Positions 10,084 to 60,376 of a DNA stretch of 64,000 nt are shown here, piece after piece. The notes under the pieces were generated by a model, which was not told where the DNA came from, ran no database searches, and worked only from the letters and a program-made list of their open reading frames with translations. Position 1 is the first letter of the stretch, and each line of letters opens with the position of its first letter. The DNA is from Roseococcus sp. SYP-B2431 (GTDB taxonomy: Bacteria > Pseudomonadota > Alphaproteobacteria > Acetobacterales > Acetobacteraceae), in the NCBI RefSeq assembly GCF_004336745.1, contig NZ_SJXD01000026.1, positions 372,001-436,000 on the forward strand, read 5' to 3'. Position numbers and translations under genes: made by a program.

Positions 10084-10108
10084 GCGCGCCGGAGGGCTCC
10101 CCCGGGGA

Positions 10109-10870: not shown

Positions 10871-10994
10871 CGGACACTCCCTCCGTTCCTTAGATGCGCG
10901 AGCCTAGATGCCCCGCCTGCATGTGCAAGGGCCCGGCTTGCCGCACCGTCATGAGCATGCTTCGCTCGCCGAAATTCATTGGGAGAAAACGCAG

Positions 10995-12038: not shown

Positions 12039-12048
12039 CGGCGCGGTC

Positions 12049-12140
12049 TTGAGGGGGCTTTGCCCCCTCAAACTCCCCCAGCAGGGAACACGTTCCCTGC
12101 ACCCTCATTCCTGAAGTAGGGCGAGGGCAGCGGCCCTCGC
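12049..12140. repeat. Three tandem perfect hairpins between convergent genes (REP-like element / bidirectional terminator)
   Basis: Three separate palindromes follow one another. TTGAGGGGGC-TTT-GCCCCCTCAA is at 12049-12071 (10-bp stem). GCAGGGAA-CACG-TTCCCTGC is at 12081-12100 (8-bp stem). GCGAGGGC-AGCG-GCCCTCGC is at 12121-12140 (8-bp stem). They fill the gap between a plus-strand dehydrogenase and a minus-strand ligase. The first and third can act as terminators in either direction. The layout of short GC palindromes joined by 'CCCCCAGCAGGG' spacers resembles intergenic repetitive elements of alphaproteobacteria. Copy number in the genome cannot be judged from this window. Confidence 0.6.
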
Positions 12141-12145
12141 ATTGA

Positions 12146-13705
12146 CTAGAATCGGATGCCTTCCGCTTCCAGGCGCTCGCGAAGCAAGGCCTTCGGGATC
12201 TTCCCGTAGGCCGACTTTGGGAGCTCCTCCCAGAAGACGAATTGCTGCGGATGACGGTAGCGCGCGAGCTGCCCGTCCAGATGCGCGAGCAGCTCGGGGC
12301 CTTCGGCCAAGGCGCCTGCATTCAGCACCACGCAGGCCACGCCCGCCTCGCCCCATTTCGGATGCGCCAGCCCGACCACGGCACATTCCGCGACCGCGGG
12401 GTGCGTCAGCAGCGCCTCCTCCACCTCGCGCGGATAGACGTTCGAGCCGCCGGAGATGAACATGTCTGAGGCGCGGCCGGTGATATGCAGGAAGCCCCGC
12501 GCGTCGAGAAATCCCAGGTCGCCCGTGTGGAACCAGCCGTGGCGGAACGCCTTTTCCGTCCCCTCCTCGTTCTGCCAGTAACCGGCGAGCACGGCATTGC
12601 CGCGCACGCAGATCCCGCCCTGCTCGCCGGGCGGAAGGCGCCGGCCGTCCTCGTCCAGGATGGCGAGGTCCATGCCGGTCCGCGGCATGCCGCAGCTGCC
12701 GACGCTCGGATCGCTGTCGTCCATCGTATGCTGGTCGGGACGCAGGACGGTGATGTTGCCGGTCACCTCGCCCAGCCCGAAATACTGCACGAGACAGCGG
12801 CCGAGCCGTTCCATCGCGCGCTTCTGGTCCGCCCGGTACATCGGTGCGCCCGCATAGATCACGTGGCGCAGGGCATGCGGCGCCGCGCGCCCGTCGGCCA
12901 CGAGCATGTTCAGGATGGTCGGCACGGTGAACATGTTGGTCACGCCATGCCGCTCGATCAGCTCCCAGGCGGTGCCGGGATCCAGCCGCTCGCCCGGCAT
13001 GAGGATGGAGCAGGCGCCGCGCGCCACCTGGCTCATCGCGTGGATGCCCGCGCCATGGCTGAGCGGCGCCACGACCAGCGAGACGTCGCGCTCCGTCAGC
13101 CCCGGCATGAGGTCGGCCAGGTGGTTGGTGACGACGAAGCCCATCTGCCCATGCGTCAGCACCGCCGCCTTCGGCCGGCCGGTGGTGCCGGAGGTGAAGA
13201 AGAACCAGCAGGGATGGTCGCGATCCACATCCGCCTCGTGATCGGGCGGCGGCGCCGGCGTGCCGGCGATCAACGCCTCGAAATCCAGTTCGCCCTCCCG
13301 CGCATCGCCGACGGCGAGGATCAGCCGGCAGTCCGGCGCCGCCTCCCGCACCGCATCGGCATGGCCGGCGAAGCCATGGTCGCGCAGCATGGCGCGCGCG
13401 CCGCTCGCCGCGGCGAGGTAGGCCGCTTCGGGCGGCGTCAGCCGGACATTGGTGGGCACCCAGACCGCGCCGAGCTTCAGGCAGGCCCAGAGGCTCTCGA
13501 ACATCACGTTGGAGTTGCGGGAATGGACCAGCACCCGGTCGCCCGGCGCGATGCCCTGCGCGCGCAGCGCCGCGCAAAGGCGGTCGACGCGCGCATTCAT
13601 CTCGGCCCAGCTCCAGCTCCGCTCCCGCCAGATCAGCGCCGGCGCATCCGGCAGGCGCCGCGCCGTCTGGGTCAGCAGCCGGCCGAGATTGGTCGTGGGG
13701 ATCAC
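12146..13705 (-). CDS. AMP-dependent acid-CoA ligase (acyl-CoA synthetase, ANL family)
   Basis: A 519-residue adenylate-forming enzyme that activates a carboxylic acid to its acyl-CoA via an acyl-AMP. The AMP-binding P-loop is FFTSGTTGRPKAAVLTH (about residues 165-181). YFGLGEVTGNITVL is near 300, the hinge region is TGDLGFLDARGFLHITGRASD (about 395-415), and the catalytic C-terminal Lys lies in LPKSAYGKIPKALL. The start is the GTG whose GTGA overlaps the stop codon of the upstream SDR, so the two are translationally coupled. Specificity is not readable; the neighbouring TRAP transporter suggests an imported organic or aromatic acid. Confidence 0.92.
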   Translation of the reverse strand: MIPTTNLGRLLTQTARRLPDAPALIWRERSWSWAEMNARVDRLCAALRAQGIAPGDRVLVHSRNSNVMFESLWACLKLGAVWVPTNVRLTPPEAAYLAAASGARAMLRDHGFAGHADAVREAAPDCRLILAVGDAREGELDFEALIAGTPAPPPDHEADVDRDHPCWFFFTSGTTGRPKAAVLTHGQMGFVVTNHLADLMPGLTERDVSLVVAPLSHGAGIHAMSQVARGACSILMPGERLDPGTAWELIERHGVTNMFTVPTILNMLVADGRAAPHALRHVIYAGAPMYRADQKRAMERLGRCLVQYFGLGEVTGNITVLRPDQHTMDDSDPSVGSCGMPRTGMDLAILDEDGRRLPPGEQGGICVRGNAVLAGYWQNEEGTEKAFRHGWFHTGDLGFLDARGFLHITGRASDMFISGGSNVYPREVEEALLTHPAVAECAVVGLAHPKWGEAGVACVVLNAGALAEGPELLAHLDGQLARYRHPQQFVFWEELPKSAYGKIPKALLRERLEAEGIRF

Positions 13706-47223: not shown

Positions 47224-47838
47224 ATGGCCGAACGGCCGGAACCCCTGAAGCCGGAATTCCTGAAGCGGGAGCCCCCGCGCGGGGCCGGCGCCGCGCGCAA
47301 CCTGCTCTTCCTGCGCGAGGAGGAGCTGCGCCTCGCGCAGGACCTGCTCTACTTCGGCTATCGGGACTTCACCGCCGGCCCCGACCGGATCCTCGCCACC
47401 ATGGAGATGGGCCGCGCGCATCACCGCGTGCTGCACTTCGTCGGCCGCGCGCCCGGCATCAAGGTGGGCGAGCTGCTGGCCATCCTGGACATCACCAAGC
47501 AGTCGCTCGGCCGCGTGCTGCAGCCGCTCATCGAGGAGGGCTACGTGCGCCAGGCGCCCGGCCTCAAGGACAAGCGGCAGCGGCTGCTCACCCTCACGGA
47601 GCAGGGCGAGGCGCTGGAGCGCCGCCTCTTCGCCGCCCAGCGCGAATGGGTGCTGCGGGCCTATCGCGAGGCGGGGCCGCAGGCGGTGGAGGGCTTCCGG
47701 CAGGTCATGCGCGGGCTGATGGGCCCCGAGGCCCGCGCCCAGTTCGAGGCGCTGGAGAAGTCCGCCGCGCCCGGCCGCTCGACGCCCCCCTTCTCGCCCA
47801 ACCCGGCCAACCGCCCGGCCAGCGCCGGCGGGGCCTGA
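47224..47838 (+). CDS. MarR-family transcriptional regulator
   Basis: A 204-residue regulator with a winged helix-turn-helix. GRAHHRVLHFVGRAPGIKVGELLAILDITKQSLGRVLQPLIEEGYVRQ (about residues 64-112) is the MarR DNA-binding region, and LKDKRQRLLTLTEQGEAL is the wing. The Pro-rich C-terminal tail (PGRSTPPFSPNPANRPAS) is not part of the fold. GGGAG lies 11 bases before the chosen ATG; an in-frame ATG 13 codons earlier is possible. It is followed by the two-component genes with a 14-base gap and may be co-transcribed. Targets unknown. Confidence 0.9.
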   Translation: MAERPEPLKPEFLKREPPRGAGAARNLLFLREEELRLAQDLLYFGYRDFTAGPDRILATMEMGRAHHRVLHFVGRAPGIKVGELLAILDITKQSLGRVLQPLIEEGYVRQAPGLKDKRQRLLTLTEQGEALERRLFAAQREWVLRAYREAGPQAVEGFRQVMRGLMGPEARAQFEALEKSAAPGRSTPPFSPNPANRPASAGGA

Positions 47839-47852
47839 TCGGAGAGCCGCCC

Positions 47853-48557
47853 ATGGCCGACCCCACCGCCGATATCCTGGTCGTCGACGACGACGCGCGC
47901 CTGCGCGCCCTGCTCCAGCGCTTCCTGGCCGAGCAGGGGCACCGCGTGGCGGTGGCCGGCGATGCGGGCGAGGCACGGGCGGCCATCGGCGCCATGGCCT
48001 TCGACCTGCTGGTGCTCGACGTGATGATGCCCGGCGAGACCGGCCTGGAGCTCGCCGAGGGCCTGCGCCGGGACGGGCACGACACGCCCATCCTCATGCT
48101 CACCGCCCGCGGCGACCCGGACGACCGCGTGGCCGGCTTCGAGCACGGCGCGGACGACTACCTCGCCAAGCCCTTCGACCCGCGCGAGCTGGCGCTGCGC
48201 ATCCGCACCATCCTGCGGCGCGCCGCACCCGCCGCATCGGCCGCCCCCATGCCGTCCGGCCCCATCCAGCTCGGCCCCCGCTGGTTCGACGCCGAGCGCT
48301 GCGAGCTGCGCAGCCCGGAGGGGACGCAGCGCCTCACCGGCGGCGAGGCCGCGCTGCTCACCGCGCTGGCCCGCCGCGCCGGCGAGGTGCTCTCGCGCGA
48401 GGACATCGCCGTCGCCCTGGGCACGCCCGATGCGGGCGAGCGCAGCGTGGACGTGCAGGTCACCCGCCTGCGCCGCAAGATCGAGGCCGACCCGCGCGAG
48501 CCGCGCTTCCTGCACACCATCCGCCACAAGGGCTACGTGCTGAGGCCCGGACCCTAA
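47853..48557 (+). CDS. OmpR-family response regulator
   Basis: A 234-residue two-component regulator. The receiver domain (about 1-120) has the acidic pair at Asp12-Asp14, phospho-acceptor Asp56 in LVLDVMMPGETG, the Thr in MLTARGD and the Lys in YLAKPFDPREL. The winged-helix output domain (about 140-232) has LTGGEAALLTALARRAGEVLSRED and RSVDVQVTRLRRKIEADPREPRFLHTIRHKGYVL. A GGAG sequence precedes the ATG. It is followed 25 bases later by the sensor kinase, so the two form an OmpR/EnvZ-like pair. Confidence 0.95.
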   Translation: MADPTADILVVDDDARLRALLQRFLAEQGHRVAVAGDAGEARAAIGAMAFDLLVLDVMMPGETGLELAEGLRRDGHDTPILMLTARGDPDDRVAGFEHGADDYLAKPFDPRELALRIRTILRRAAPAASAAPMPSGPIQLGPRWFDAERCELRSPEGTQRLTGGEAALLTALARRAGEVLSREDIAVALGTPDAGERSVDVQVTRLRRKIEADPREPRFLHTIRHKGYVLRPGP

Positions 48558-48582
48558 GAAGAACCGCCGTGAGATCCCCTCC

Positions 48583-49932
48583 TTGAAGCGCCCCGACAAG
48601 TCCATCTCCCGCCAGCTCGGCATGCTGCTGCCGCGCGGGCTGCTGGCGCGGACGCTGCTGATCATGCTGCTGCCGCTCGTGGTGGTGCAGGGGGTGGCGC
48701 TGCAGCTCTTCTACGGCGGGCATCTCGACGTCATCTCGCGCCGCCTCACCTCGGGCCTGGCCGGCGATGTCGCCTTCGTCGCGAGCCTCGTGGACAACCT
48801 GCCGGAGGCCATGCGCCCGGAGATGCTGCGCGAGGGCAACTGGCGCCTCGGCCTCTCGCTCGGCTTCGAGCCGGGGGCCGCGCTCGGCGTCCCGCCGACG
48901 CGCCCGGCCTGGAACCCGTTCCTGCCGCTGGAGCAGGACCTCAACAGCGCGCTGCGCGAGCGCATGACCTTCGCTTTCGATGCCGACTGGCAGAGCGATC
49001 CGCAATCCCTCGTCATCCGCGTGCAGACCGCCACCGGAATCCTCAGCGTCGAGGCGCCGCGCAAGCGGCTCTTCAGCACCACGCTCTACGTCTTCGTGCT
49101 CTGGCTGGTGGGCTCGGCGATGCTGCTGGCCGGCATCGCGGTGCTCTTCATGAAGAACCAGGTGCGCGCCATCCGCCGGCTGGGCGAGGCCGCGGAATCC
49201 TTCGGCCTCGGCCGCGAGGCCGGGCCCATGAAGCCCGAGGGCGCGCGCGAGGTGCGGCAGGCGGCGCTGGCCTTCAACGCCATGCAGGAGCGCATCCTGC
49301 GCTTCGTGAACCAGCGCACCGAGATGCTGGCCGGCATCAGCCACGACCTGCGCACGCCGCTCACCCGCATGCGGCTGGCGCTGGCCATGTTCCCGCGCAC
49401 CCCCGAGACGGAGGAGGACGTGGCCGCCCTCAACCAGGACCTCGAGGAGATGGAGCGGATGGTGGAGAGCTACCTCGCCTTCGCGCGCGGCGAGCGCACC
49501 GAGGCCCCGCGCCCCTCCGACCTCGTGGACCTCGTGGAGGACATCGCCGCCAAGGCCCGCCGCAGCGGCGCGGCGGTGGAGGTCGAGGCGCCCGAGACGC
49601 TCGTGCTGCCGCTGCGGGCCGATGCGCTGAAGCGCGCGCTGGGCAACCTGCTGGACAATGCCCGGCGGCATGCCCGCCGCATCGCCATCGGCGTGACCCC
49701 GCTGCAGGATTCCGGCCGGAGCTGGGCGGAGCTGACCGTGGACGACGACGGCCCCGGCATCCCCGCCGGCGAGCGCGCGGACGCCTTCCGGCCCTTCAGC
49801 AGCGGCTCGGCCACGGGGACCGGGCTGGGGCTGGCCATCGCGCGCGACATCGTGCGCGCGCATGGCGGCGACATCCTGCTGGAGCAGAGCCCGATGGGCG
49901 GTCTGCGGGCGCGGCTCAGGCTTCCGGTATAG
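48583..49932 (+). CDS. EnvZ-like sensor histidine kinase
   Basis: A 449-residue inner-membrane sensor. It has two transmembrane helices, near residues 20-42 (LLARTLLIMLLPLVVVQGVALQLF) and 170-192 (TLYVFVLWLVGSAMLLAGIAVLF), with a periplasmic loop between. A HAMP region follows (RAIRRLGEAAESFG), then the dimerisation box MLAGISHDLRTPLTRMRL with His254. The ATPase motifs are LGNLLDNARRHARR (N box), VDDDGPGIP (G1) and GTGLGLAIARDI (G2). The start is a TTG with a poor ribosome-binding site; an ATG 13 codons later is an alternative. The likely stimulus is an envelope or osmotic signal, by analogy only. Confidence 0.92.
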   Translation: MKRPDKSISRQLGMLLPRGLLARTLLIMLLPLVVVQGVALQLFYGGHLDVISRRLTSGLAGDVAFVASLVDNLPEAMRPEMLREGNWRLGLSLGFEPGAALGVPPTRPAWNPFLPLEQDLNSALRERMTFAFDADWQSDPQSLVIRVQTATGILSVEAPRKRLFSTTLYVFVLWLVGSAMLLAGIAVLFMKNQVRAIRRLGEAAESFGLGREAGPMKPEGAREVRQAALAFNAMQERILRFVNQRTEMLAGISHDLRTPLTRMRLALAMFPRTPETEEDVAALNQDLEEMERMVESYLAFARGERTEAPRPSDLVDLVEDIAAKARRSGAAVEVEAPETLVLPLRADALKRALGNLLDNARRHARRIAIGVTPLQDSGRSWAELTVDDDGPGIPAGERADAFRPFSSGSATGTGLGLAIARDIVRAHGGDILLEQSPMGGLRARLRLPV

Positions 49933-49969
49933 AACGACGACGGCGCCCGGCGGCCCTGGTGCTTCCGCT

Positions 49970-50722
49970 TCACGGCCGCACCGCCGGCGTCTCGACCGCC
50001 ATGCCCGCGGCCCGCTGCGCCAGATACAGCTCGATCTCCACATATTCCGCCGCGCCATAGGCATAGGGCTCGGCGCGCGCGCCCGTCATGCAGCCGCGCA
50101 GCCGCCGCTGCAGCGAGCCCAGCGACTGCCATTCGAGCCGGTAGAGCGGGTATCCGGTCGGGTGGCCCTGCGGGATCACGCTGCCGGCCAGCCGGCGGCC
50201 GGCGTTGTCGTCGTGGCACTGCGCGCAGGAGAGGTCGAGCTGGCCGCGCCGCTCCGCATAGAGCGCCCGCCCCCGCGCGCGGGCCGAGTCCAGCCGCGCA
50301 TCGTCCGGCGGGCGGATCGGCTCGCCGCGCGACTGGTGCGCGACATAGGCCGCGAGCGCCAGCAGGCCCTCGCTCTCGCGCGCCAGGGCCGGGGCGCCCT
50401 GGCGGGACTCGCGGCTCTGCCGGATGCGGCCAGCCAGGTCGATCGGCGCGCCGCTGGCCTCGTCCCAGGCCGGGTAACGGGCGGCGACGCCGCGCATGCT
50501 GACCTCGGCCTTCCCGTGGCAGCTGGCGCAGGATCGCCCGGACGCGCCGTCCGGCCGGTTCCACAGCGCCTCGCCCTCCAGCACCCAGAGCATGCCGGGA
50601 TTGGCGGTGTCGTCCCGCTGCATGGCCTGGCTTTCGCGCGACATCTCCTCGAAGCCGGAGCGCCGCTCCTGCGCGGCGGCGGGCAAGGCGAGCGCGGCCA
50701 GCAGCGCCAGCGCGCGCCTCAC
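49970..50722 (-). CDS. soxA: Sulfur oxidation c-type cytochrome SoxA (diheme)
   Basis: The 250-residue periplasmic subunit that, with SoxX, links a sulfur substrate to the cysteine of SoxY. The signal peptide is MRRALALLAALALPAAAQ. Two heme-binding motifs are present, CASCH at residues 65-69 and CAQCH at 166-170, so this is the diheme form. The cysteine that serves as heme ligand and substrate carrier is Cys211 in RRLRGCMTGARAEPYAYG. It overlaps soxZ by four bases and is the last gene of the eight-gene minus-strand operon. It converges with the sensor kinase gene 37 bases away. Confidence 0.96.
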   Translation of the reverse strand: MRRALALLAALALPAAAQERRSGFEEMSRESQAMQRDDTANPGMLWVLEGEALWNRPDGASGRSCASCHGKAEVSMRGVAARYPAWDEASGAPIDLAGRIRQSRESRQGAPALARESEGLLALAAYVAHQSRGEPIRPPDDARLDSARARGRALYAERRGQLDLSCAQCHDDNAGRRLAGSVIPQGHPTGYPLYRLEWQSLGSLQRRLRGCMTGARAEPYAYGAAEYVEIELYLAQRAAGMAVETPAVRP

Positions 50723-51042
50723 GGCGCCACCGTGATCTCGCGCGTCTCGGTCTGGTCGAAGCCGTTGTCGCCCTGCCAGCGCAGCACCAGCGGTGCGGTG
50801 CGCGTCGCGACGAGGGCGAAGGACAGGAAGGGATTGGCGGCGATGGCGGGCGAGAGCTCGGCGGCGAAGACCTCGGCGCCGTCGTAAGTGGCGGTGAAGC
50901 GGCGGAGGATGTCGCGCGGCAGCACCTCGCCGTCGGCGCCGGGACGGTAGCCCGTCTCCATGCCGTGCTGGATGAGCGTGCGGATGGTGACGACCTCGCC
51001 GGGCCGGGCGCTGCGGGGGATGTTGAGCAGGACGCGCGCCAT
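50719..51042 (-). CDS. soxZ: Sulfur carrier subunit SoxZ
   Basis: The 107-residue partner of SoxY; it forms the SoxYZ carrier heterodimer. The sequence ARVLLNIPRSARPGEVVTIRTLIQHGMETGYR is typical of SoxZ (conserved HxMETGxR), followed by FTATYDGAEVFAAELSPAIAANPFLSFAL. No signal peptide is present; SoxZ is normally exported bound to SoxY. It starts three bases after soxY and overlaps soxA by four. Confidence 0.95.
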   Translation of the reverse strand: MARVLLNIPRSARPGEVVTIRTLIQHGMETGYRPGADGEVLPRDILRRFTATYDGAEVFAAELSPAIAANPFLSFALVATRTAPLVLRWQGDNGFDQTETREITVAP

Positions 51043-51045
51043 GGC

Positions 51046-51483
51046 TCAGCCCTCCACGCAGGCCGCGAGGGTGACGACCACCTGCGCGCGATCCGACCAG
51101 AAGCTGCCGTCCGAGAGCTGCGCCACGGCCAGCAGGTTCTGCGAGGTGGCGAGGCGGATATGCGTGGCCAGGATCGCGCGGCCGGAGCGAGGGCCGAGGC
51201 GCACCGTGATGACATGCGGCTGCGGGTTGCGCTCGTTGAAGACCGCGATGGCGCGGACATGGTCCGCCTCGGTCATCGGGCTGTCCACGATGACCGAGAG
51301 CGGCACGGCGTTGCCGTTCTCGACGAGCGGCGAGATGTCCATCGCCACCCGGCCGGGCCGGACCTCGGCGCCATCCGTGAAGCCGCGCACGGCCTCGGCC
51401 ATCGCCTCGGCCGAGGCGTCGGCGCCGCGCGGCAGGAGCAGCAGCGCGGGGGCGGCGAGCAGCAGGCGGCGGGGCGCGATCAT
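51046..51483 (-). CDS. soxY: Sulfur carrier subunit SoxY with atypical C terminus
   Basis: The 145-residue SoxY that should carry sulfur on a C-terminal cysteine. The signal peptide MIAPRRLLLAAPALLLLPRGADA has an Arg pair; SoxY is usually a Tat substrate. The body DISPLVENGNAVPLSVIVDSPMTEADHVRAIAVFNERNPQPHV is clear SoxY. The C terminus is TLAACVEG: the carrier Cys142 is present, but the canonical swinging arm GGCGG is replaced by AACVEG. The ATGA overlap with soxX sets the start. The change could alter how substrates are attached or released. Confidence 0.93.
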   Translation of the reverse strand: MIAPRRLLLAAPALLLLPRGADASAEAMAEAVRGFTDGAEVRPGRVAMDISPLVENGNAVPLSVIVDSPMTEADHVRAIAVFNERNPQPHVITVRLGPRSGRAILATHIRLATSQNLLAVAQLSDGSFWSDRAQVVVTLAACVEG

Positions 51484-51899
51484 CGCGGCGGCTCCTCGCG
51501 CAGGGTCGTCAGATAGGCCACCACGTCCTCGATCTCCTGCGCGCCCAGGACCGTGCGTCCCTGGAAAGCGGGGGCGACCCGGTGCAGCCCTTCGCTGCGG
51601 TGGTAGGAGGGCATGATGCTGTCCGGATTCAAGCGGCGGCTGTCCATGAGGCGGAGGCGGAGCTGTCCCTCCGTCCATCGGCTGCCGGCGCCGGCGAGGT
51701 CGGGGGCCAGGTTCCCCTGGAACCGCTCCTCCGGCATGGGCGCGGGGTGGCACAGCAGGCACAACCCGCGCTGCCGGTCGGCGACGATGGCGCGGCCGCG
51801 CGCCGGGTCGCCCGGCTGTGCCGTGAGCGGAGCGGCCTCCTGCGCCACGGCCGGAAAGGCCGCCGCCAGCAGCACGGCGAGAGACCTAGCCGAAGGCAT
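51480..51899 (-). CDS. soxX: Sulfur oxidation c-type cytochrome SoxX
   Basis: The small monoheme subunit of SoxAX, 139 residues. After signal peptide MPSARSLAVLLAAAFPAVAQ it has one heme motif, CLLCH at residues 47-51. It then shows the SoxX signature GNLAPDLAGAGSRWTEGQLRLRLMDSRRLNPDSIMPSYHR, containing the Met axial ligand. The C-terminal VLGAQEIEDVVAYLTTL is typical. It overlaps soxF upstream by 14 bases and soxY downstream by four. Confidence 0.94.
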   Translation of the reverse strand: MPSARSLAVLLAAAFPAVAQEAAPLTAQPGDPARGRAIVADRQRGLCLLCHPAPMPEERFQGNLAPDLAGAGSRWTEGQLRLRLMDSRRLNPDSIMPSYHRSEGLHRVAPAFQGRTVLGAQEIEDVVAYLTTLREEPPR

Positions 51900-53121
51900 C
51901 GGCGGTGATCGTCGCGAACCAGTCCTCCGCGTAGAGAGCCTCGGCCTCGCGGAAGGCGGGCGGCGCGTCGAGAGGGCTGATGCCGCCGGCGCCGGGGCTA
52001 TCGGCCAGCACGCCCTCGACCGCCCGGTACACCCCGGCCACGGAGATGCCGTAGCCGGGGCCGACGAGGCTGTAGCAGGTGTTGAGCAGGCGTGGCTCGG
52101 GCACCGGCGCGCCGCGCAGCAGGCGGGTGATGGCATCGGCGCAGACCCGCGCCTGGGCATTCGCGGCGAAGGCCGATTTCGGCATGGCCCCGGCGATGCA
52201 GGCGTCGCCGATCACATGGACATTCGGCACCAGCCGGGATTCGAAGCTGGCCGGGTCCACCGGGCACCAGCCGGAACGGTCGGCCGTCCCCGCGATCCGG
52301 GCGATGTCGCCGGCGCGCTGCGGCGGGATCACGTTCACCACGTCGCCCGCATGGTTGCCGAATTCCGTCACGACCTCGCGCGCGGCGAGGTTCACGCCCG
52401 TCACGCGGCCGCCGCCCGAGAGCGGCACGTATTCCAGCAGCCCGGGGTAGAGCGCGGCCCAGGCCGCCTCGAAGAGCCGCTGCTTGGAGAAGGCGTCCTT
52501 GGCGTCGAGCACCAGCAGCTTGGAGCGCGGCTTCCGCGTCCGGAGGTAATGCGCGACCAGGCTGGCGCGCTCATAGGGGCCGGGCGGGCAGCGATAGGGA
52601 TTCGCGGGCACGGTCAGGACGACGGTGCCGCCATCCTCCATCGCCTCCAGCCGCGCGCGCAGCAATTCGGTCTGGGCGCCAGCGTGCCAGGCATGCGGCA
52701 TCACCTCGGCCGCGGCCTCGTCATAGCCGGCGAGCGCGTCGAAGCGCAGCGCGATGCCGGGCGAGAGGACCAGGCGGTCGTAGGGCAGCACGCTTCCATC
52801 GGCCAGCGTCACGCGGCGCGCGGTGGCGTCGACGCCCGTGGCGGCCTGATGCGCGACGCCGATGCCCTGATCGCGCAGCGCCCCGTAGCCGAAGCGCTGG
52901 CGCTCCATGGGCCGCAGCCCGGCGATGACGGTGTTGCTGAAGGGGCAGGCCGTGTAGGTGGCATGCGGCTCGACCAGCGTGACCGCGAGGCCGTTCCGCC
53001 GCAGCGCCCGCGCGCAGCTCGCCCCGCCGAAGCCGCCGCCGACCACCACGACGACCGGGGCCGCCTGCGCCAGAGCGGGCGCCGCGAACAGCCCCGCCAG
53101 CGCGCGCCGCGCGACCCTCAC
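51886..53121 (-). CDS. soxF: Flavocytochrome c sulfide dehydrogenase flavoprotein subunit (SoxF/FccB)
   Basis: A 411-residue periplasmic FAD protein that oxidises sulfide (or another sulfur species) and passes electrons to a cytochrome c. The N terminus (RRALAGLFAAPALAQAAP) looks like a Tat signal. FAD binding is VVVVGGGFGGASCARALRR. The two cysteines of the redox disulfide lie in the conserved NPYRCPPGPYERASL and SGWCPVDPASFES motifs, and VHVIGDACIAGAMPKSAFAANAQA is the second FAD segment. The start is the GTG in a GTGA overlap with the cytochrome gene upstream, so flavin and heme subunits are made together. Confidence 0.94.
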   Translation of the reverse strand: MRVARRALAGLFAAPALAQAAPVVVVVGGGFGGASCARALRRNGLAVTLVEPHATYTACPFSNTVIAGLRPMERQRFGYGALRDQGIGVAHQAATGVDATARRVTLADGSVLPYDRLVLSPGIALRFDALAGYDEAAAEVMPHAWHAGAQTELLRARLEAMEDGGTVVLTVPANPYRCPPGPYERASLVAHYLRTRKPRSKLLVLDAKDAFSKQRLFEAAWAALYPGLLEYVPLSGGGRVTGVNLAAREVVTEFGNHAGDVVNVIPPQRAGDIARIAGTADRSGWCPVDPASFESRLVPNVHVIGDACIAGAMPKSAFAANAQARVCADAITRLLRGAPVPEPRLLNTCYSLVGPGYGISVAGVYRAVEGVLADSPGAGGISPLDAPPAFREAEALYAEDWFATITADAFG

Positions 53122-53399
53122 CGCACCACCCAGGCGGCGATGGCGCGGCTCTCGGCCTCGCTGAAGCCCCGCGCGAGGCGGTCCATCACCGTCGCGGGCG
53201 CCGTGCCGTCGCGATAGGCGCGCAGCAGCGCCGCGACCTCCGCCGGATCACGCCCGCGCAGCGAGGGGATCGCCCCATCGGCCCGGGCCGGCGAATGGCA
53301 GCCGAGGCAGGAGGAGGCGCCCGGCGGGGCCTCCCCGGCGAAGGCCGGCATGGCCTGCAGCAGCAGCGACAGCGCCAGGCGCGGCGCCATCGCCGTCAC
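53118..53399 (-). CDS. Small class I cytochrome c (electron partner of SoxF or IorB)
   Basis: A monoheme cytochrome of about 93 residues with a short signal peptide (MAPRLALSLLLQAMPAFAG) and heme motif SSCLGCHSP. The likely axial Met lies in APATVMDRLARGFSEAE. The start is taken as a GTG overlapping the iorB stop (GTGA), giving three extra residues; the ATG at 53390 is the alternative. It may be the FccA/SoxE subunit of the flavocytochrome, or the electron acceptor of the molybdenum hydroxylase upstream, as cytochromes often serve IorAB-type enzymes that have no FAD subunit. The evidence does not choose between them. Confidence 0.88.
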   Translation of the reverse strand: MTAMAPRLALSLLLQAMPAFAGEAPPGASSCLGCHSPARADGAIPSLRGRDPAEVAALLRAYRDGTAPATVMDRLARGFSEAESRAIAAWVVR

Positions 53400-55627
53400 G
53401 TCCGGCGCAGGCTCGTATTCTTCAGCGGCAGGTCGCGCACGCGCTTGCCGGTCGCCGCGAAGATCGCGTTGAGCACGGCCGGCGCGGCCACCGCGATGGT
53501 CGGCTCGCCCACCCCGCCCCAGAAGCCGCCGGTCGGCAGGACGATGGTCTCGACCTTCGGCATCTCGTCCATCCGCAGCACCTGGTAGCTGTCGAAGTTG
53601 GTCTGCTCGATGCGGCCGTCCTTCACCGTGCACTCGCCGTAGAGCGCGGCCGAAAGCCCATAGACGAACGAGCCCTCCACCTGCGCCGCGATCTGCTGCG
53701 GGTTTACGGCATGGCCGGGGTCGGTGGCCGCGACGATGCGGTGGATCTTCAGCACCCCCGCCTCGCTCACCGAGACCTCGGCGCAGGCCGCGACGTAGCT
53801 GCCGAAGCCATGGGTCTGCGACAGGCCGCGGAAGACCGGCTGCCCGTCCACCGGCGCCGCCGGCGTGCCCCAGCCCGCGCGCTCGGCGACGGCATTGAGC
53901 ACGGCCAGGTGCTTCGGATGGTTCGCCATCAGGGCCCGGCGGAACTCCAGCGGATCCTTCCCCGCGGCATGGGCCAGCTCGTCCAGGAAGCACTCGAGAT
54001 AGATCGTGTTCTGGTTCAGGTTCACCCCGCGCCAGAAGCCCGGCGGCACATGCGGGTTGCGCATGGCGTGGTCGATCAGCAGATTCGGGATGGTGTAGCC
54101 GATATCGGCCTCGTTGCTGCTGGCGTTCAGCCCCTGGAAGACCAGCGGATCGCGGCCGTCGCGGATGTTCTGCGGGAACATGCCGGCGATGATCGACTGG
54201 CCGGCGAGGCGCATGTGAAGCCCGGCCAGGTTGCCCTGCGCACCCAGCCCCGCCGTCATCCTGCACATGGTGATCGGGTGGAACCGGCCCTGCAGCATGT
54301 CCTCCTCGCGCGTCCAGACGAGCTTCACCGGCGTGCCGGGCATCTGCTTCGCGATCTCCACCGCCTGGCGCACCCAGTCATGCACGGCGGCGCGCCGGCC
54401 GAAGCCGCCGCCAAGGTGGAACTTGTGGACCTCGCAGCGCGCGGGCGGCAGGCCGGAGGCCTCGGCGGCGACGGCATGCGCCGCCTCGCCGTTCTGGGTG
54501 GGCGTCCAGACCTCGCAGCGCTCGGGCGTCCAGACGGCGGTGGCGTTCATCACCTCCATGCAGGCGTGGTTCTGGTGCGGGTAGGAATAGACGGCCTCGA
54601 CCTTGCGGGGGGCCGCGGCGATGGCGGCTGCCGCATCCCCCGCCCGGTTGCCCACGGCCGCCTGGGGCGCATCCAGCGCCGATCTCAGCACCTCCGCGAA
54701 GCCGGCGGAGGAGGCGGCGGCGTGCTCGCCCTCGTCCCAGGTGATGTTGACCGCGTCGAGCGCCGTCTTGGCCCGCCACCAGGTGTCGGCCACGACGGCG
54801 ACGGCATTGTCCCCCACGCGCAGCACGCGCTTCACGCCGGGCATGGCCTCGGCGGCGGCGGAATCCACGCTGCGCACCTTGCCGCCGAAGACCGGGCAGG
54901 CATGGATCGCGGCGTTCAGCATGCCCGGCAATTGCAGGTCCATTCCGTAGACCTGGCTGCCGTTGAGCTTGGCCGCGGTGTCGAGCCGCAGGACCGGCTG
55001 GCCGGCGACTTTCCAGTCCGCCGGGTTCTTCAGCGGGACGTCGGTGGGCACCGGCAGCCGTCCGGCCGCCTCGGCCACGCGGCCGAAGGTGGTGGTCCGG
55101 CCGCTGGGCATGTGGGTGACGATGCTGGCCGCCGCCCGGCACTCTCCGGCCGGCACGGACCACGCGTTCGCCGCCGCCTGCACGAGCATCATGCGCGCGG
55201 CCGCGCCGCCCTTGCGGACATAGTCCTGGCTCTCGCGGATGCCGCGGCTGCCGCCGGTGGACATGTTGCCCCAGACCCGGCCGCGCGCGAGGTTCTGGCC
55301 CGGCGTCGGGTATTCGGTGGTGACCTTGGCCCAGTCGCATTCCAGCTCCTCGGCCACGAGCTGGGCGAGGCCGGTGAGCGTCCCCTGCCCCATCTCGGAG
55401 CGGGCGATGCGGATCACGATCGTGTCGTCGGGCTTCACCACGACCCAGGCATTCACTTCGGCCGAGGTCGGCGCGGCGGCCGGAGCGGAAGCCGGGGCGC
55501 CCGTCTGGGCCGCGGCCTCGCCCGGCAGCGGGATGCGGAAGCCGAGGGTGAAGGCGCCGAGCGCCGCGGAGGCGCTGGCGAGGAGGTGGCGGCGGCTGGG
55601 GTTCCCGGGCCGGCTGATGGCGTTCAT
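53396..55627 (-). CDS. Molybdopterin-containing hydroxylase large subunit (IorB type, xanthine dehydrogenase family)
   Basis: A 743-residue periplasmic molybdenum hydroxylase that oxidises an aldehyde or N-heterocycle. The Tat signal is SRRHLLASASAALGAFTLGF. Molybdopterin-binding parts include KFHLGGGFGRRAAVHDWVRQAVEIA and the N-terminal SEMGQGTLTGLAQLVAEELECDW. The active-site Glu708 is in GGFWGGVGEPTIAVAAPAVLNA. This is the single-polypeptide IorB arrangement with a fused N-terminal domain, not XdhB. GGGAGGA precedes the ATG. It follows iorA by 11 bases and overlaps the cytochrome gene by four, tying it to the sox genes downstream. The substrate is unknown; isoquinoline oxidoreductase and acetic-acid-bacterial aldehyde dehydrogenases are relatives. 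Confidence 0.93.
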   Translation of the reverse strand: MNAISRPGNPSRRHLLASASAALGAFTLGFRIPLPGEAAAQTGAPASAPAAAPTSAEVNAWVVVKPDDTIVIRIARSEMGQGTLTGLAQLVAEELECDWAKVTTEYPTPGQNLARGRVWGNMSTGGSRGIRESQDYVRKGGAAARMMLVQAAANAWSVPAGECRAAASIVTHMPSGRTTTFGRVAEAAGRLPVPTDVPLKNPADWKVAGQPVLRLDTAAKLNGSQVYGMDLQLPGMLNAAIHACPVFGGKVRSVDSAAAEAMPGVKRVLRVGDNAVAVVADTWWRAKTALDAVNITWDEGEHAAASSAGFAEVLRSALDAPQAAVGNRAGDAAAAIAAAPRKVEAVYSYPHQNHACMEVMNATAVWTPERCEVWTPTQNGEAAHAVAAEASGLPPARCEVHKFHLGGGFGRRAAVHDWVRQAVEIAKQMPGTPVKLVWTREEDMLQGRFHPITMCRMTAGLGAQGNLAGLHMRLAGQSIIAGMFPQNIRDGRDPLVFQGLNASSNEADIGYTIPNLLIDHAMRNPHVPPGFWRGVNLNQNTIYLECFLDELAHAAGKDPLEFRRALMANHPKHLAVLNAVAERAGWGTPAAPVDGQPVFRGLSQTHGFGSYVAACAEVSVSEAGVLKIHRIVAATDPGHAVNPQQIAAQVEGSFVYGLSAALYGECTVKDGRIEQTNFDSYQVLRMDEMPKVETIVLPTGGFWGGVGEPTIAVAAPAVLNAIFAATGKRVRDLPLKNTSLRRT

Positions 55628-55638
55628 GGCTTCCTCCC

Positions 55639-56100
55639 TCAACCGGCCGTGGCCGGGCCGGCCGCGCGCTGGATGCCCGCGATGACCCGGTTGAAGGTGC
55701 CGCAGCGGCAGATGTTCGTGACCTCCTCGCGGATCTGCGCCTCGGTCGGGCGCGGCGTCGCGGCGAGCAGCGCGGCGGCGGCCATGATCATCCCCGGCTG
55801 GCAGAAGCCGCATTGCGGCACGTCGAGCGCGAGCCAGGCCTGCTGGATCGGATGGCTGGCGTCCGGCGAGAGCCCCTCGATGGTGACGATCCTCTGGGTC
55901 TCGTCGAAGGCCGAGACTGGCATGGCGCAGGCGCGCGCGGCGACGCCGTCCACATGCACGGTGCAGGCGCCGCATTGCGCGATGCCGCAGCCGTATTTGG
56001 TCCCGGTCAGGCCGAGCTGCTCGCGCAGCGCCCAGAGCAGCGGCGTGTCGTCCTCGGCCTGGACCTCGACGACCTGTCCATTGACGTTGAGCTTCGCCAT
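55639..56100 (-). CDS. 2Fe-2S subunit of the molybdenum hydroxylase (IorA type)
   Basis: The 153-residue iron-sulfur electron-transfer subunit paired with IorB. The plant-type ferredoxin cluster is bound by Cys38, Cys43, Cys46 and Cys58 (GCGIAQCGACTVHVDG then ARACAMPVS). The second, helical 2Fe-2S domain has CGFCQPGMIMAAAALL and NICRCGTFNRVIAGI. No signal peptide is present; it should be carried out with IorB by Tat. AGGAGGGA precedes the ATG. It is the first gene of the eight-gene iorAB-sox unit. A 139-base gap separates it from fsr, where a promoter would be expected. Confidence 0.95.
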   Translation of the reverse strand: MAKLNVNGQVVEVQAEDDTPLLWALREQLGLTGTKYGCGIAQCGACTVHVDGVAARACAMPVSAFDETQRIVTIEGLSPDASHPIQQAWLALDVPQCGFCQPGMIMAAAALLAATPRPTEAQIREEVTNICRCGTFNRVIAGIQRAAGPATAG

Positions 56101-56239
56101 CCGTCCCTCCTGTTCCCTGCGCGCGCCCTCGCGGCGCGGCTGCCCGGATCCGATGCCGAGGCTTGTTCCCGAGCCTATCAGGCGAGGAGGCGGCGGAACA
56201 ATCAAATCACGAGGGCGCGGGCCTGGCCCGGATGTCCCC

Positions 56240-57460
56240 CTACCGCTCGGACAGCTTCGGCAGGAACACCGTCAGCAGCCCGAGCAAGGGGAGGAAGGCA
56301 CAGACCATGTAGACGGTGGAGATGCTGGTCCGGTCCGCCAGCTCGCCCAGCGCCGCCGCGCCGAGGCCGCCCAGGCCGAAGGAGAGGCCGAAGAACATGC
56401 CGGCCACGAGGCCCACCCGCCCCGGCAGCAGCTCCTGCGCATAGACCAGGATCGCCGCGAAGGCCGAGGACATGACGAGCCCGATCGTCACCGCCAGGAC
56501 CACCGTCCAGAACAGGTTCGCGAAGGGCAGCGCCAGGGTGAAGGGCAGCGCGCCCAGGATGGAGAACCAGATGATGGGCAGCCGGCCCACCCGGTCGCCC
56601 AGGATGCCGCCAATCATGAGGCCCACGGCCAGCGAGCCGAGGAAGACGAAGAGGATGACCTGCGCGGCCTGCACGGAGACCTCGAAGCGCTCGATCAGGT
56701 AGAAGGTGAAATAGGAGCTGAGGCTGGCCGTATAGACGTTCTTCGAGAAGAGCAGCGCGATCAGCACCAGGACCGCCAGCGCCACCTGCCCGCGCGAGAG
56801 CCCGTGCCCCGCGGCCGCGCCCGCCTTGCGCGCCGGGGCGCGCGCCACCCGGTTGCGGGCGTACCAGTGCCCCACCTGCAGCAGGATCAGCATGCCGAGG
56901 AGGGCCGCGGCCGAGAACCAGACGAGGCTCGCCTGTCCATGCGGCACCACCACGAAGGCGGCCAGCAGCGGCCCGATCGCCGAGCCGGTGTTGCCGCCCA
57001 CCTGGAACAGCGACTGCGCCAGCCCGTAGCGGCCGCCCGAGGCCAGCCGCGCGACGCGCGACGCCTCCGGATGAAAGACCGAGGAGCCCACGCCGATCAG
57101 CGCCGCCGCCAGCAGGATCACCGTGTAGGAATTCGCATGCGCCATCAGCAGCAGGCCGACCAGGGTCGAGCTCATGCCGATCGGCAGCGAATAGGGCATG
57201 GGCCGCTTGTCGGTGTAGATGCCGACCAGCGGCTGGAGCAGCGAAGCGGTGACCTGGAAGGCGAGCGTGATCAGCCCGATCTGGGCGAAGTCCAGCGCGT
57301 AGGACTCCTTCAGGATCGGGTAGAGGGCCGGCACCAGCGACTGCATCATGTCGTTCAGCAGGTGGCAGAAGCTGAGCGAGAGGATGACCGCGAAGGTGGT
57401 GCCGCTGGGCTGGGCCAAGGGGGAGGCCGGGGCCTGGAGGGCGGGCTGATGGGTGCTCAC
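56240..57460 (-). CDS. MFS transporter, fosmidomycin resistance (Fsr) type
   Basis: A 406-residue 12-helix MFS exporter. It closely resembles Fsr: FCHLLNDMMQSLVPALYPILKESYALDFAQIGLITLAFQVTASLLQPLVGIYTDKRPMPYSLPIGM at about residues 31-97, with GVGSSVFHPEASRVARLASGGRYGLAQSLFQVGGNTGSA near 125-160. The start codon is GTG. It lies downstream of serS on the same strand (79-base gap). Related proteins export fosmidomycin, the inhibitor of the Dxr also encoded in this window; the native substrate is unknown. Confidence 0.9.
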   Translation of the reverse strand: MSTHQPALQAPASPLAQPSGTTFAVILSLSFCHLLNDMMQSLVPALYPILKESYALDFAQIGLITLAFQVTASLLQPLVGIYTDKRPMPYSLPIGMSSTLVGLLLMAHANSYTVILLAAALIGVGSSVFHPEASRVARLASGGRYGLAQSLFQVGGNTGSAIGPLLAAFVVVPHGQASLVWFSAAALLGMLILLQVGHWYARNRVARAPARKAGAAAGHGLSRGQVALAVLVLIALLFSKNVYTASLSSYFTFYLIERFEVSVQAAQVILFVFLGSLAVGLMIGGILGDRVGRLPIIWFSILGALPFTLALPFANLFWTVVLAVTIGLVMSSAFAAILVYAQELLPGRVGLVAGMFFGLSFGLGGLGAAALGELADRTSISTVYMVCAFLPLLGLLTVFLPKLSER

Positions 57461-57539
57461 GGGACGTTCCGCTTGATTTACGATCCATCCTAGGCACGCC
57501 GGGGAAGGAAGTCAGCCCGCCCCGGCAGGCGAGGCGCCG

Positions 57540-58808
57540 CTACATCCGGGCGGGAATCCGCTCCATCCCCATCCAGGGCCGCAGCACCTCGGGCACGAGG
57601 ATGCCGCCATCCTCCTGCTGATGCGTCTCCATGACCGCGATGAGCGCGCGGCCCACGGCCACGCCCGAGCCGTTCAGCGTGTGGACCAGCACATTGTCCT
57701 TGCCGCGGCGATAGCGCGCCTTCATCCGCCGCGCCTGGAATTCGCGGCAGTTGGAGCAGGAGGAAATCTCGCGCCAGGCCTGCTGGCCGGGCAGCCAGAC
57801 CTCCAGGTCGTAGGTGCGCGCGGCCGAGAAGCCCGTATCCCCCGCGCAGAGGAAGACGCGGCGCCAGGTCAGGCCGAGCGCGGTCAGCACGGCCTCGGCG
57901 CATTCCGTCATGCGCTCGTGCTCGGCGTCGCTCTCCTCGGGCCTCGTGATCGAGACCAGCTCCACCTTGCTGAACTGGTGCTGCCGCAGCATGCCGCGCG
58001 TGTCGCGGCCCGCGCTGCCGGCCTCGCTGCGGAAGCTCGGCGAGAGCGCGGTGAAGCGCAGCGGCAGGACCGCCTCGGCCAGAATCTCGTCGCGGGCGAG
58101 GTTGGTCAGCGGCACCTCGGCGGTCGGGATCAGGTAGCGGCCGTCCGTCGTCTTGAAGAGGTCCTCCTCGAACTTCGGGAGCTGGCCGGTGCCGAACATG
58201 GTGGCCGCGTTCACAAGGTTGGGGACCGAGGTCTCGCTGTAGCCGTGCTGATCCGTGTGCAGCGTCAGCATCCATTGTCCGAGCGCCCGCTCCAGCCGCG
58301 CCAGTGCGCCCTTCAGCACCACGAAGCGGCTGCCGGAAATCTTGGTCGCGGCGGCGAAGTCCATGAGGCCGAGCGCCTCGCCCAGCTCGAAATGCTGCTT
58401 GGCCTCGAAGTTCGGGCGGGCGGGCTCGCCATGCTGGCGGACGACCACGTTGTCGTTCTCGTCGCGGCCCTCCGGCACCTCGGGGTCGAGGAGGTTGGGC
58501 AGGACGGAGAGCGCCTCGGCGACCGCGGCCTCCTTGGCCTCGACCTCGGCCCCCTCGGCGGCGGCCACCGCCGCGGCCACCTCCGCCTTGAGGCGCTCCG
58601 CCTCGTCCCTGTCGCCGCGCTTCATGGCGGCGCCGATCTCGCGGGAAAGGGCATTGCGCCGGGCCTGGGCGCCCTCGGTCAGGGCGATGGCGGCGCGCCG
58701 TGCCTCGTCCAGCGCCAGGATTCCGGCCGCCTGGGGCTCCACCCCGCGTCGCGCCATGGCCGCGTCGAAACCGGCCGCATCGGCGCGGACCACTCGGATG
58801 TCATGCAT
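57540..58808 (-). CDS. serS: Seryl-tRNA synthetase
   Basis: Charges tRNA-Ser. The 422-residue class II enzyme has the N-terminal tRNA-binding coiled coil (about residues 30-105, Ala/Glu/Arg-rich). Motif 2 is [29 protein letters not shown] and motif 3 is [31 protein letters not shown]. Length matches the family. It follows tatC on the same strand across 147 bases in which I see no gene, in the common alphaproteobacterial order tatB-tatC-serS; the next expected gene, surE, is replaced here by fsr. Confidence 0.98.
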
Positions 58809-58955: not shown

Positions 58956-59750
58956 TCACTTGGTGTCCTCCAGCGGCTTCGGCACCACCCAGAGCGCGAA
59001 GAGGATCGAAATCTCGTAGAGCAGGATCAGCGGCACGGCCAGGCCGATCTGGCTGATCACGTCCGGGGGCGTGATGATCGCGGCCAGCACGAACATGCCC
59101 ACGATCGCGTAGCGACGGCCCTTGCGCAGGCCCGCCACGCTCAGGATGCCCACGCGGCACAGCAGCACCAGCGCCACCGGCATCTGGAAGGCGATGCCGA
59201 AGGCCAGGATCATGTGCATGACCAGCGAGAGGTACTCGCTGACCTTGGCCTCCAGCTGGATCGGCACGCCCCCCTGCCCGGGCGGCGTCTCGAAGCTGAT
59301 GAAGAAGTGCCAGGCCAGCGGGAAGATGAAGTAGTAGGCCAGCGCCGCGCCCAGCAGGAACAGGATCGGCGAGGCGACCAGGAAGGGCGTCACCGCCCGC
59401 TTCTCGGAGCGGTAGAGGCCGGGCGCGATGAAGAGCCAGAGCTGCGTCGCCCAGATCGGGAAGGAGAAGAACACGGCGCCGAAGAAGGCCACCTTCAGAT
59501 AGGTGAAGAAGGCCTCGTAGAGCGCGGTGAAGATCATCCGCCGGTCGCCGCCGCCCTGCTCCTGCAGGATGCGGGCGAGCGGCTGCGCCAGGAAGCCGTA
59601 GATCTGCGCCGAGAAGTAGTAGCAGACCGCGAAGGCGAGGCCGAAGGCGAGGACCGACCAGAGAAGCCGCCGGCGCAGCTCCATCAGATGGTCGATCAAC
59701 GGCATGGGCTTGTCGTTGATGGGATCGTCGTCTTCGGCGGTGGTGGACAC
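58956..59750 (-). CDS. tatC: Twin-arginine translocase subunit TatC
   Basis: The Tat receptor that recognises RR signal peptides. The 264-residue protein has six transmembrane helices and the conserved N-terminal PLIDHLMELRRRLLWSVLAF, the ARILQEQGGGDRRMIFTALYEAFFTYLKVAFF block with the key Glu, and FGIAFQMPVALVLLCRVGI. The start is GTG (MSTTAEDDDPINDKPMPLIDHL), eight bases after tatB. Many proteins in this window (IorB, SoxF, SoxY, DctP, the caspase-like protein) carry candidate Tat signals. Confidence 0.96.
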   Translation of the reverse strand: MSTTAEDDDPINDKPMPLIDHLMELRRRLLWSVLAFGLAFAVCYYFSAQIYGFLAQPLARILQEQGGGDRRMIFTALYEAFFTYLKVAFFGAVFFSFPIWATQLWLFIAPGLYRSEKRAVTPFLVASPILFLLGAALAYYFIFPLAWHFFISFETPPGQGGVPIQLEAKVSEYLSLVMHMILAFGIAFQMPVALVLLCRVGILSVAGLRKGRRYAIVGMFVLAAIITPPDVISQIGLAVPLILLYEISILFALWVVPKPLEDTK

Positions 59751-59758
59751 GGGGGGCC

Positions 59759-60376
59759 TCAGACGATCTTGGCCGCGTCGGCGGAAGCGGGCGCCGCGGC
59801 GGGAGTTGGGCTGGCGGGCGCGTGCTCGATCGGCGCCGCCGTCAGCTGCTCGGCGGGCGCCGGCGCCGGCACGGCGGAGACGGCCGGCTCGGGCCTGATC
59901 GGGTTGGGCGGCGCCGGGGTCGAGGGCGGCAGGAAGGAGGGCGCCTCGGGCTGCGGCTCGGGCTCGGGCGGCTTGTAGGGAGCCATGGTCTGCGGCGGGA
60001 TCATCGCCGGCGCGTCCGGCGTGTCGGCGGCGGTCGGCGGCGGCGTCCAGGCCGGCGTCGCGCTGACGGGGCTGTCGTTGAAGGTCTTGGCCAGCGTGCC
60101 ATCGGAATCGACGGTCTTCTCGATATGGCCCTTCAGGTCGAAGCTGCGGATCTCGTTGATCGCGCCCTTCACGTCGGCGATCTGGTTCCGCACGTCCTCC
60201 AGCTTGGCCTCGCGCACCAGCTCGTCCGCCTGCTGCTGGAACTGGGCAAGCTGCTTCTTCCCCTTCTTCACGAGGTCCGCAATGCCGCGGATCGCGCTGG
60301 GCAGGTCCTTCGGACCGATCACCACCAGCGCCACGACGGCGACCAACATGATCTCGGACCAGGCGAGGTCGAGCAT
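59759..60376 (-). CDS. tatB: Sec-independent protein translocase TatB
   Basis: A 205-residue TatB. The single N-terminal helix and hinge read MLDLAWSEIMLVAVVALVVIGPKDLPSAI, with the TatB-type Glu8 and the Gly-Pro hinge. An amphipathic helix follows (RGIADLVKKGKKQLAQFQQQADELVREAKLEDVRNQIADVKGAI). The last 100 residues are a Pro/Ala/Glu-rich disordered tail. No tatA lies upstream; the neighbouring genes are an ABC ATPase and a caspase-like protease. Confidence 0.94.
   Translation of the reverse strand: MLDLAWSEIMLVAVVALVVIGPKDLPSAIRGIADLVKKGKKQLAQFQQQADELVREAKLEDVRNQIADVKGAINEIRSFDLKGHIEKTVDSDGTLAKTFNDSPVSATPAWTPPPTAADTPDAPAMIPPQTMAPYKPPEPEPQPEAPSFLPPSTPAPPNPIRPEPAVSAVPAPAPAEQLTAAPIEHAPASPTPAAAPASADAAKIV

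Follow-up and report, generated by a model that had tools for sequence, protein, structure and literature searches.

A conserved coupling of the molybdenum hydroxylase IorAB to Sox proteins with a remodelled SoxY arm

What does a molybdenum hydroxylase do beside the genes of a sulfur-carrier system? The question is raised by eight genes, iorA, iorB, cyt, soxF, soxX, soxY, soxZ and soxA, which all lie on the minus strand, from 56100 to 49970, in a stretch of 64,000 nucleotides from Roseococcus sp. SYP-B2431 (contig NZ_SJXD01000026.1, positions 372,001 to 436,000), hereafter the window. A first-pass annotation, made from the letters of the window, described these genes as one unit with tight or overlapping junctions, and the coordinates and family searches agree with it: iorA and iorB are 11 bases apart, iorB and cyt overlap by 4 bases (cyt start at GTG 53399) or are separated by 5 (the possible alternative start at ATG 53390), and the later junctions, from cyt through soxA in order, are -4, -14, -4, +3 and -4 bases. 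The coupling of IorAB to Sox proteins is real and conserved, and this conclusion is well supported by the comparisons reported here; the unit is a widespread Sox variant, built round a SoxY of the TIGR04487 family and found well beyond the source genome.

The comparisons covered an order sample of 395 genomes, a phylum sample of 398 genomes, and a set of named genomes scanned with an alignment of Bradyrhizobium IorB; the best 80 of at least 588 stretches encoding relatives were taken from that scan. IorB of the clade to which the unit belongs is encoded in 78 of the 395 order genomes, with identities of 57-100% (the next listed copies have 46% and 43%). SoxY is encoded within 8 kb of the clade IorB in 69 of these 78 genomes, and in the remaining nine either IorB or SoxY is located about 2 kb or less from a contig end. 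A second, unlinked IorB copy accompanies a linked or split unit in G153, G178, G348 and G367. In the phylum sample, 15 of the 398 genomes passed the TIGR04487 cut-off, and clade IorB was found there too; a few copies have no SoxY nearby, namely those of G532, G580 and G691 and the second copies of G685 and G770. Among the best 80 named loci, SoxY is encoded directly downstream of IorB in 71, five are truncated at contig ends (L203, L204, L206, L208 and L209), and four have no SoxY (L200, L214, L228 and L232, the last retaining only soxF). The genera represented among them include Bradyrhizobium, Tardiphaga, Bosea, Microvirga, Reyranella, Mesorhizobium, Enterovirga, Pseudoduganella, Duganella, Noviherbaspirillum and Methylibium, and the unit is carried on plasmids in Neorhizobium galegae, a Methylobacterium and Roseomonas marmotae. 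Since genera of two classes share the linkage, in several gene arrangements, chance adjacency was rejected. The genome of L200 also contains an iorA fragment beside a stop-bearing soxA fragment (L295, G797:C14), apparent remains of a deleted unit.

In a quick IorB tree, with SH-aLRT support only, Sox-linked copies occupy both main branches, and the linkage label requires 12 changes. An IorB clade strictly defined by Sox linkage is thus unsupported, unlinked copies being scattered in the tree; the tree is compatible with an ancient association followed by duplication and loss, and does not imply a single origin of the linkage. For SoxA, the approximately unbiased (AU) test does not reject one clade (p 0.543, which is no demonstration of it), and two long rows of that tree were badly extracted.

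The feature that most clearly sets the unit apart is the carboxy-terminal arm of SoxY. The SoxY of the window fails the model SoxY_true_GGCGG (82.8 vs 125 bits) and passes TIGR04487, named "SoxY-related AACIE arm protein"; the arm of ior-linked SoxY ends in [A/S/G/P]-A-C-x-[D/E], whereas canonical SoxY ends in GGCGG. We compared 165 sequences, comprising the window, 40 order loci, 44 other loci and the 80 named loci. Of the ior-linked SoxY, 123 had an arm that could be read, and all 123 carried A-C; at least four loci are in this count under two identifiers, and one arm cut by a contig end is missing from it. The acidic residue two places after the arm cysteine was present in 121 of the 123, the exceptions being L116 and L117. 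Among 15 unlinked SoxY, 11 have the GGCGG arm, two (L046 and L061) have A-C arms and adjoin soxF at contig ends, and two (L069 and L125) have arms of a third type. When the last nine residues were left out, the ior-linked rows of the SoxY tree still formed one side of a branch with an SH-aLRT of 98. In the order sample, TIGR04487 matched 152 of the 395 genomes at E 0.001 and 31 above its cut-off; one of these 31, G011, has a GGCGG SoxY, and the other 30 have A-C arms. The altered arm, which the first-pass annotation had missed, is the best sign that the unit is probably not a thiosulfate system. Two further observations concern SoxY annotation and context. The SoxY of L124 (9872-10312) is labelled a thiosulfate oxidation carrier by PGAP, yet it has the arm GACVE and belongs to an ior unit, so that the label is likely an over-annotation. 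A third context, in which soxYZ lies with a cytochrome gene and a flavoprotein gene of the flavocytochrome c sulfide dehydrogenase (FCSD) type and without IorAB, occurs in L069, L125 (pSymA of Sinorhizobium meliloti) and L299, where the arms end in GGCLT, NGCL and GGCLS, respectively.

The unit does not depend on SoxB. The presence of SoxB was tested in 49 order genomes chosen from the TIGR04487 SoxY matches, 43 with an A-C-arm SoxY and six (G011, G074, G100, G126, G143 and G236) that have a GGCGG SoxY and lack clade IorB. All six GGCGG-only genomes have SoxB. Clade IorB is encoded in all 43 A-C-arm genomes but G351, whose contig begins at soxX; SoxB was above the cut-off in eight of the 43, was without any match at E 1e-50 in 34, and gave a partial match at a contig end, under the cut-off, in G344. 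Outside the order, 23 genomes including G221 were tested, and 19 of them have a linked unit; SoxB was found in 15 of these 19 and in none of G468, G613, G701 and G714. Not counted among the 19 are G221, G532 and G580, which are without SoxB, and G691, which has it. Overall, SoxB is missing from 38 of the 62 unit genomes, in line with the SoxB-less coupling first proposed for the window. Moreover, all 23 unit genomes with SoxB above the cut-off encode a separate SoxY within 4 kb of SoxB. SoxC, an optional component in truncated Sox systems, was above its cut-off in four of 30 unit genomes, all 30 taken from the 34 SoxB-less order genomes, and in both canonical genomes included in the search. 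The source genome itself (4.7 Mb, 99% complete) encodes a single SoxY. The first-pass annotation had held that a complete soxBCD set elsewhere in that genome, together with normal thiosulfate oxidation, would reduce the arrangement to chance adjacency; neither SoxB (best match 142 bits vs 550) nor SoxC (154 bits vs 420) was found above its cut-off, SoxD not having been searched.

The components of the unit in the window are as follows.

55639..56100, minus strand: iorA, [2Fe-2S] subunit of the xanthine oxidase family, 153 aa (PF00111/PF01799)
53396..55627, minus strand: iorB, molybdopterin-binding subunit with a twin-arginine N-terminus, 743 aa (MoCoBD_1 and MoCoBD_2)
53118..53399 (start at GTG 53399 or ATG 53390), minus strand: cyt, small monoheme cytochrome c, probable SoxF partner (Cytochrome_CBB3)
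51886..53121, minus strand: soxF, flavoprotein of the flavocytochrome c sulfide dehydrogenase type (FCSD_central and FCSD-flav_bind)
51480..51899, minus strand: soxX, monoheme cytochrome c (NCBI model 79.3 bits, cut-off 61)
51046..51483, minus strand: soxY, carrier of the AACIE-arm family TIGR04487 (PF13501; TIGR04487 193.7 bits, cut-off 172)
51049..51066, minus strand: remodelled SoxY carrier arm A-A-C-V-E-G (from the translation and the arm comparison)
50719..51042, minus strand: soxZ, SoxY partner (PF08770; 70.7 bits, slightly under the true-SoxZ cut-off of 76)
49970..50722, minus strand: soxA, diheme cytochrome with the conserved C-x-x-G-x-R (PF21342; NCBI model 230.3 bits, cut-off 110)

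The MFS transporter gene upstream of iorA (56240-57460) had no match among the 40 order loci, and a search of 49800-57700 revealed no promoter or terminator consensus, a negative that carries little weight here. Genes recognized by eye as a response regulator and a histidine kinase are located on the plus strand at 47838-49932, the kinase gene and soxA ending 37 bases apart, and this pair is not conserved at other loci. Genes resembling tatB and tatC, also recognized by eye, occupy 58956-60376, upstream of iorA by about 3 kb, and their proximity to a unit whose IorB carries a twin-arginine start is probably a coincidence.

The gene set that the first-pass annotation had suggested looking for in related genomes is found again, in several arrangements, among alpha- and betaproteobacteria. 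Three layouts predominate: iorAB-(cyt)-soxF-soxXYZA, iorAB-soxXYZA and iorAB-soxXYZA-cyt-soxF. In seven of the best 80 loci (L207, L211, L215, L216, L225, L233 and L241), iorAB-soxYZ occurs without adjoining soxXA. Judged by these layouts, the core of the unit is IorAB, SoxYZ and SoxXA, and the cyt-SoxF pair is optional, being often absent where iorAB-soxXYZA persists. The iorAB-soxYZ loci might be taken to mean that SoxXA is unnecessary; this was rejected, as SoxA is encoded elsewhere in all seven genomes, five of which have an ior-type soxXYZA set at the fetched locus; in the remaining two, an ior-like soxA at the end of a contig was all that was seen. By eye, genes resembling tripartite tricarboxylate receptors were seen near iorAB-soxYZ of L215, L216 and L241, and a TauD-like gene near the cassettes of L215 and L216. 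The small cytochrome gene is located directly before soxF wherever both were seen, even when the pair stands at the opposite end of the unit; beside SoxF in many Bradyrhizobium loci among the best 80, the cytochrome was undetected. The first-pass annotation had assigned this cytochrome the role of an electron hub shared by IorAB and the Sox proteins. Because it stays with soxF and moves with it, as does the cytochrome partner of FCSD, such a role is less likely. Between iorB and soxX of L047 (G215), remnants of cyt (residues 20-44) and soxF (residues 335-406) at 11142-11423 show the optional pair in the course of being lost. Other variations in content include a tandem pair of iorB genes inside one ior-sox unit in L138 and L139 (G227 and G337), and an XdhC_CoxI gene placed directly after soxA, as if a member of the unit, in four f13 genomes (G468, G613, G701 and G714). 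XdhC_CoxI, a maturation factor of xanthine-oxidase-family enzymes, is present in all 19 genomes tested.

The proteins of the unit retain the motifs of their families. In a survey of 47 ior-linked loci, all 47 have the conserved glutamate motif of IorB (GVGEP or GLGEP), the [2Fe-2S] cysteine patterns of IorA, CxxCH in SoxX, and two CxxCH together with C-x-x-G-x-R in SoxA; a pattern search detected an RR pair close to the start of IorB in 42 loci, and inspection by eye located it in the five others. In the window, SoxXA pass their model cut-offs and have the heme and active-site cysteine motifs. Three cysteines of SoxF, which we take to be the functional cysteines of flavocytochrome c sulfide dehydrogenase, are aligned in 34 of 34 full-length rows, the remnant in L047 set aside; a loss of SoxF cysteines in Bradyrhizobium, suggested by a strict pattern, was rejected on alignment. 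One TAG was reported within the matched iorB stretch of L117 (G468) and one within that of G613. The best-scoring solved relatives are 8gy3_C, an aldehyde dehydrogenase large subunit, for IorB, 5n1t for SoxF and 1h31 for SoxA. Neither IorA nor IorB reaches an NCBIfam equivalog cut-off, and therefore no substrate can be named.

The canonical SoxY arm brings sulfur intermediates into partner enzymes. Since the arm changes with IorAB linkage, SoxYZ is kept where SoxXA is encoded elsewhere and SoxB is dispensable, SoxYZ would be a carrier for IorAB. We tentatively propose, with a probability of roughly 0.4, that the unit is a self-contained periplasmic module apart from thiosulfate-oxidizing Sox, in which the remodelled-arm SoxYZ is the dedicated partner of the molybdenum hydroxylase. 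Its substrate and chemistry we infer from the sequences: (i) SoxXA would oxidatively couple a sulfur-containing substrate to the SoxY arm cysteine; (ii) the A-C-x-[D/E] arm would present the sulfur-bound group to IorAB, which would hydroxylate its carbon with water as the oxygen donor; (iii) electrons would leave via IorA to a c-type cytochrome, possibly SoxXA; and (iv) cyt-SoxF, where present, would act as a sulfide dehydrogenase that oxidizes sulfide or clears residual sulfane from the carrier. The cargo would most likely be an organic thiol or a thiol-aldehyde adduct. Chemistry on carbon is expected because IorB belongs to the xanthine oxidase family, and SoxB is not needed because the proposed mechanism requires no sulfonate release. 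In a more far-reaching form, which would make the unit a new class of carrier-bound carbon oxidation, SoxYZ may act as a protein-borne thiol cofactor comparable to glutathione or coenzyme A, loaded by SoxXA and holding an organic or organosulfur substrate for the periplasmic hydroxylase; we regard this version as doubtful.

Several observations weigh against a dedicated carrier for IorAB. Unlinked clade IorB copies (L131, L133-L135, L137 and others) are scattered in the IorB tree, and IorAB can therefore work without adjacent Sox genes. In L126 (G532, 8849-12913), only soxX and soxA come after iorAB, and the genome, a single contig, encodes no SoxY; SoxY is therefore not always needed. The presence of SoxA elsewhere in all seven iorAB-soxYZ genomes, the motifs of SoxA and SoxF, which are those of inorganic sulfur enzymes, and the failure of flanking-ORF clustering at 49 loci to reveal a ninth conserved gene point the same way; no neighbor was common to more than 10 of these loci, and the most widespread groups consisted of ordinary transporter components whose distance from the unit varied.

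One alternative is that IorAB replaces SoxCD and oxidizes the sulfane sulfur on the SoxY arm, so that the unit would serve inorganic sulfur oxidation with another molybdenum enzyme. IorAB and SoxCD both belong to the molybdenum enzymes of the periplasm that work with cytochromes, SoxC is present in only four of the 30 unit genomes searched, all SoxB-less, and SoxF and SoxXA look intact. However, IorB belongs to the xanthine oxidase family, whose known reactions are on carbon, whereas SoxC belongs to the sulfite oxidase family; and without SoxB there is no known sulfate-releasing step. We consider such a replacement unlikely.

It is likewise improbable that the Sox part serves the enzyme, removing or delivering reactive sulfur and thereby protecting or re-sulfurating the molybdenum-sulfido center of IorAB in the periplasm. 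The occurrence of XdhC_CoxI in all 19 genomes tested, and directly after soxA in the four f13 genomes, speaks against this and weakens the related idea that SoxYZ stands in for XdhC; unlinked IorAB copies also occur. On the other hand, sulfane carriers remain with IorAB in all but a few layouts among the best 80 loci, and a published study suggests that a divergent SoxYZ protects methanol dehydrogenase (PMC11237559).

Co-expression alone, with IorAB oxidizing an aldehyde or heterocycle, the Sox proteins separately handling sulfide, and both sharing a cytochrome c and the same conditions, appears quite unlikely. IorAB copies without Sox exist, as does the cluster of soxYZ, cytochrome and flavoprotein genes without IorAB (L069, L125 and L299), but all 123 readable arms of ior-linked SoxY are altered, and iorAB keeps soxXYZA or soxYZ after cyt-soxF is gone.

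Published observations exist on related carriers and on SoxY paralogs. Divergent SoxYZ encoded near alcohol, methanol and formate dehydrogenases have been proposed to have a role in carbon metabolism (PMC11237559). The SoxYZ-S2 and SoxYZ-S4 groups described there resemble the unit in placing a SoxYZ carrier beside a carbon-oxidizing dehydrogenase and differ in that SoxYZ is fused, the arm is another one and the enzymes are quinoproteins; SoxY lacking GGC were excluded from that study. Bradyrhizobium diazoefficiens reportedly has two soxY genes, of which soxY1 of locus I alone is essential for thiosulfate oxidation (PMC5748708). A genome titled B. diazoefficiens SZCCT0449 (L183) encodes three SoxY: the first adjoins SoxB, the second belongs to the ior unit, and the third stands apart from both. 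In four other Bradyrhizobium genomes (L149, L150, L155 and L156) this last copy reads as a SoxYZ fusion; soxY2 is therefore probably the A-C-arm gene. According to Hahn and others, certain sox genes of Polynucleobacter are similar to Bradyrhizobium genes and missing from Cupriavidus and Ralstonia (PMC3308952). An additional system for oxidizing thiosulfate or sulfide, in which SoxB acts in trans or a SoxH-like hydrolase takes its place, would agree with the kept SoxXA motifs, the PGAP label of one member as a thiosulfate carrier and the reported replacement of SoxB by SoxH in Sulfurimonas CVO, as told in PMC11237559, but it is very improbable given the absence of SoxB from 38 of the 62 unit genomes, the altered arm, and the need for only soxY1 in thiosulfate oxidation by B. 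diazoefficiens (PMC5748708), if soxY2 is the SoxY of the unit.

Comparison with known systems delimits what is new. With canonical Sox (SoxXA, SoxYZ, SoxB and SoxCD) the unit shares homologs of SoxX, SoxY, SoxZ and SoxA, the heme motifs and the SoxA C-x-x-G-x-R; it differs in the arm and the joined molybdenum hydroxylase, and the source genome lacks SoxB and SoxC above the cut-offs. IorAB has the [2Fe-2S] small subunit, molybdopterin large subunit and twin-arginine start of periplasmic hydroxylases and aldehyde dehydrogenases of its type, whereas the IorB of the unit forms its own clade among the compared rows, mostly Sox-linked. Cyt-SoxF resembles flavocytochrome c sulfide dehydrogenase (FccAB, SoxEF) in both FCSD domains, the three cysteines and the cytochrome gene directly before, but here it is an optional part of a larger unit. 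The SoxY paralog was already known and named by NCBI, and the window SoxY is above the cut-off of that model; the name covers SoxY alone and gives no function, and the link to IorAB, the conserved partner, was read here from the gene neighborhoods. In the open-licence literature, judged by titles and the starts of abstracts, no description of the IorAB-Sox coupling was found.

Genome and metagenome surveys commonly equate sox genes with thiosulfate oxidation. The unit is frequent in the sampled Acetobacteraceae and in Bradyrhizobium, is also present in further alpha- and betaproteobacteria and often lacks an accompanying SoxB; calls of thiosulfate oxidation may therefore be wrong for many genomes. 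A conserved partner gives TIGR04487 a testable function, and the unit suggests that SoxYZ carriers may act in carbon and organosulfur oxidation more widely than has been assumed.

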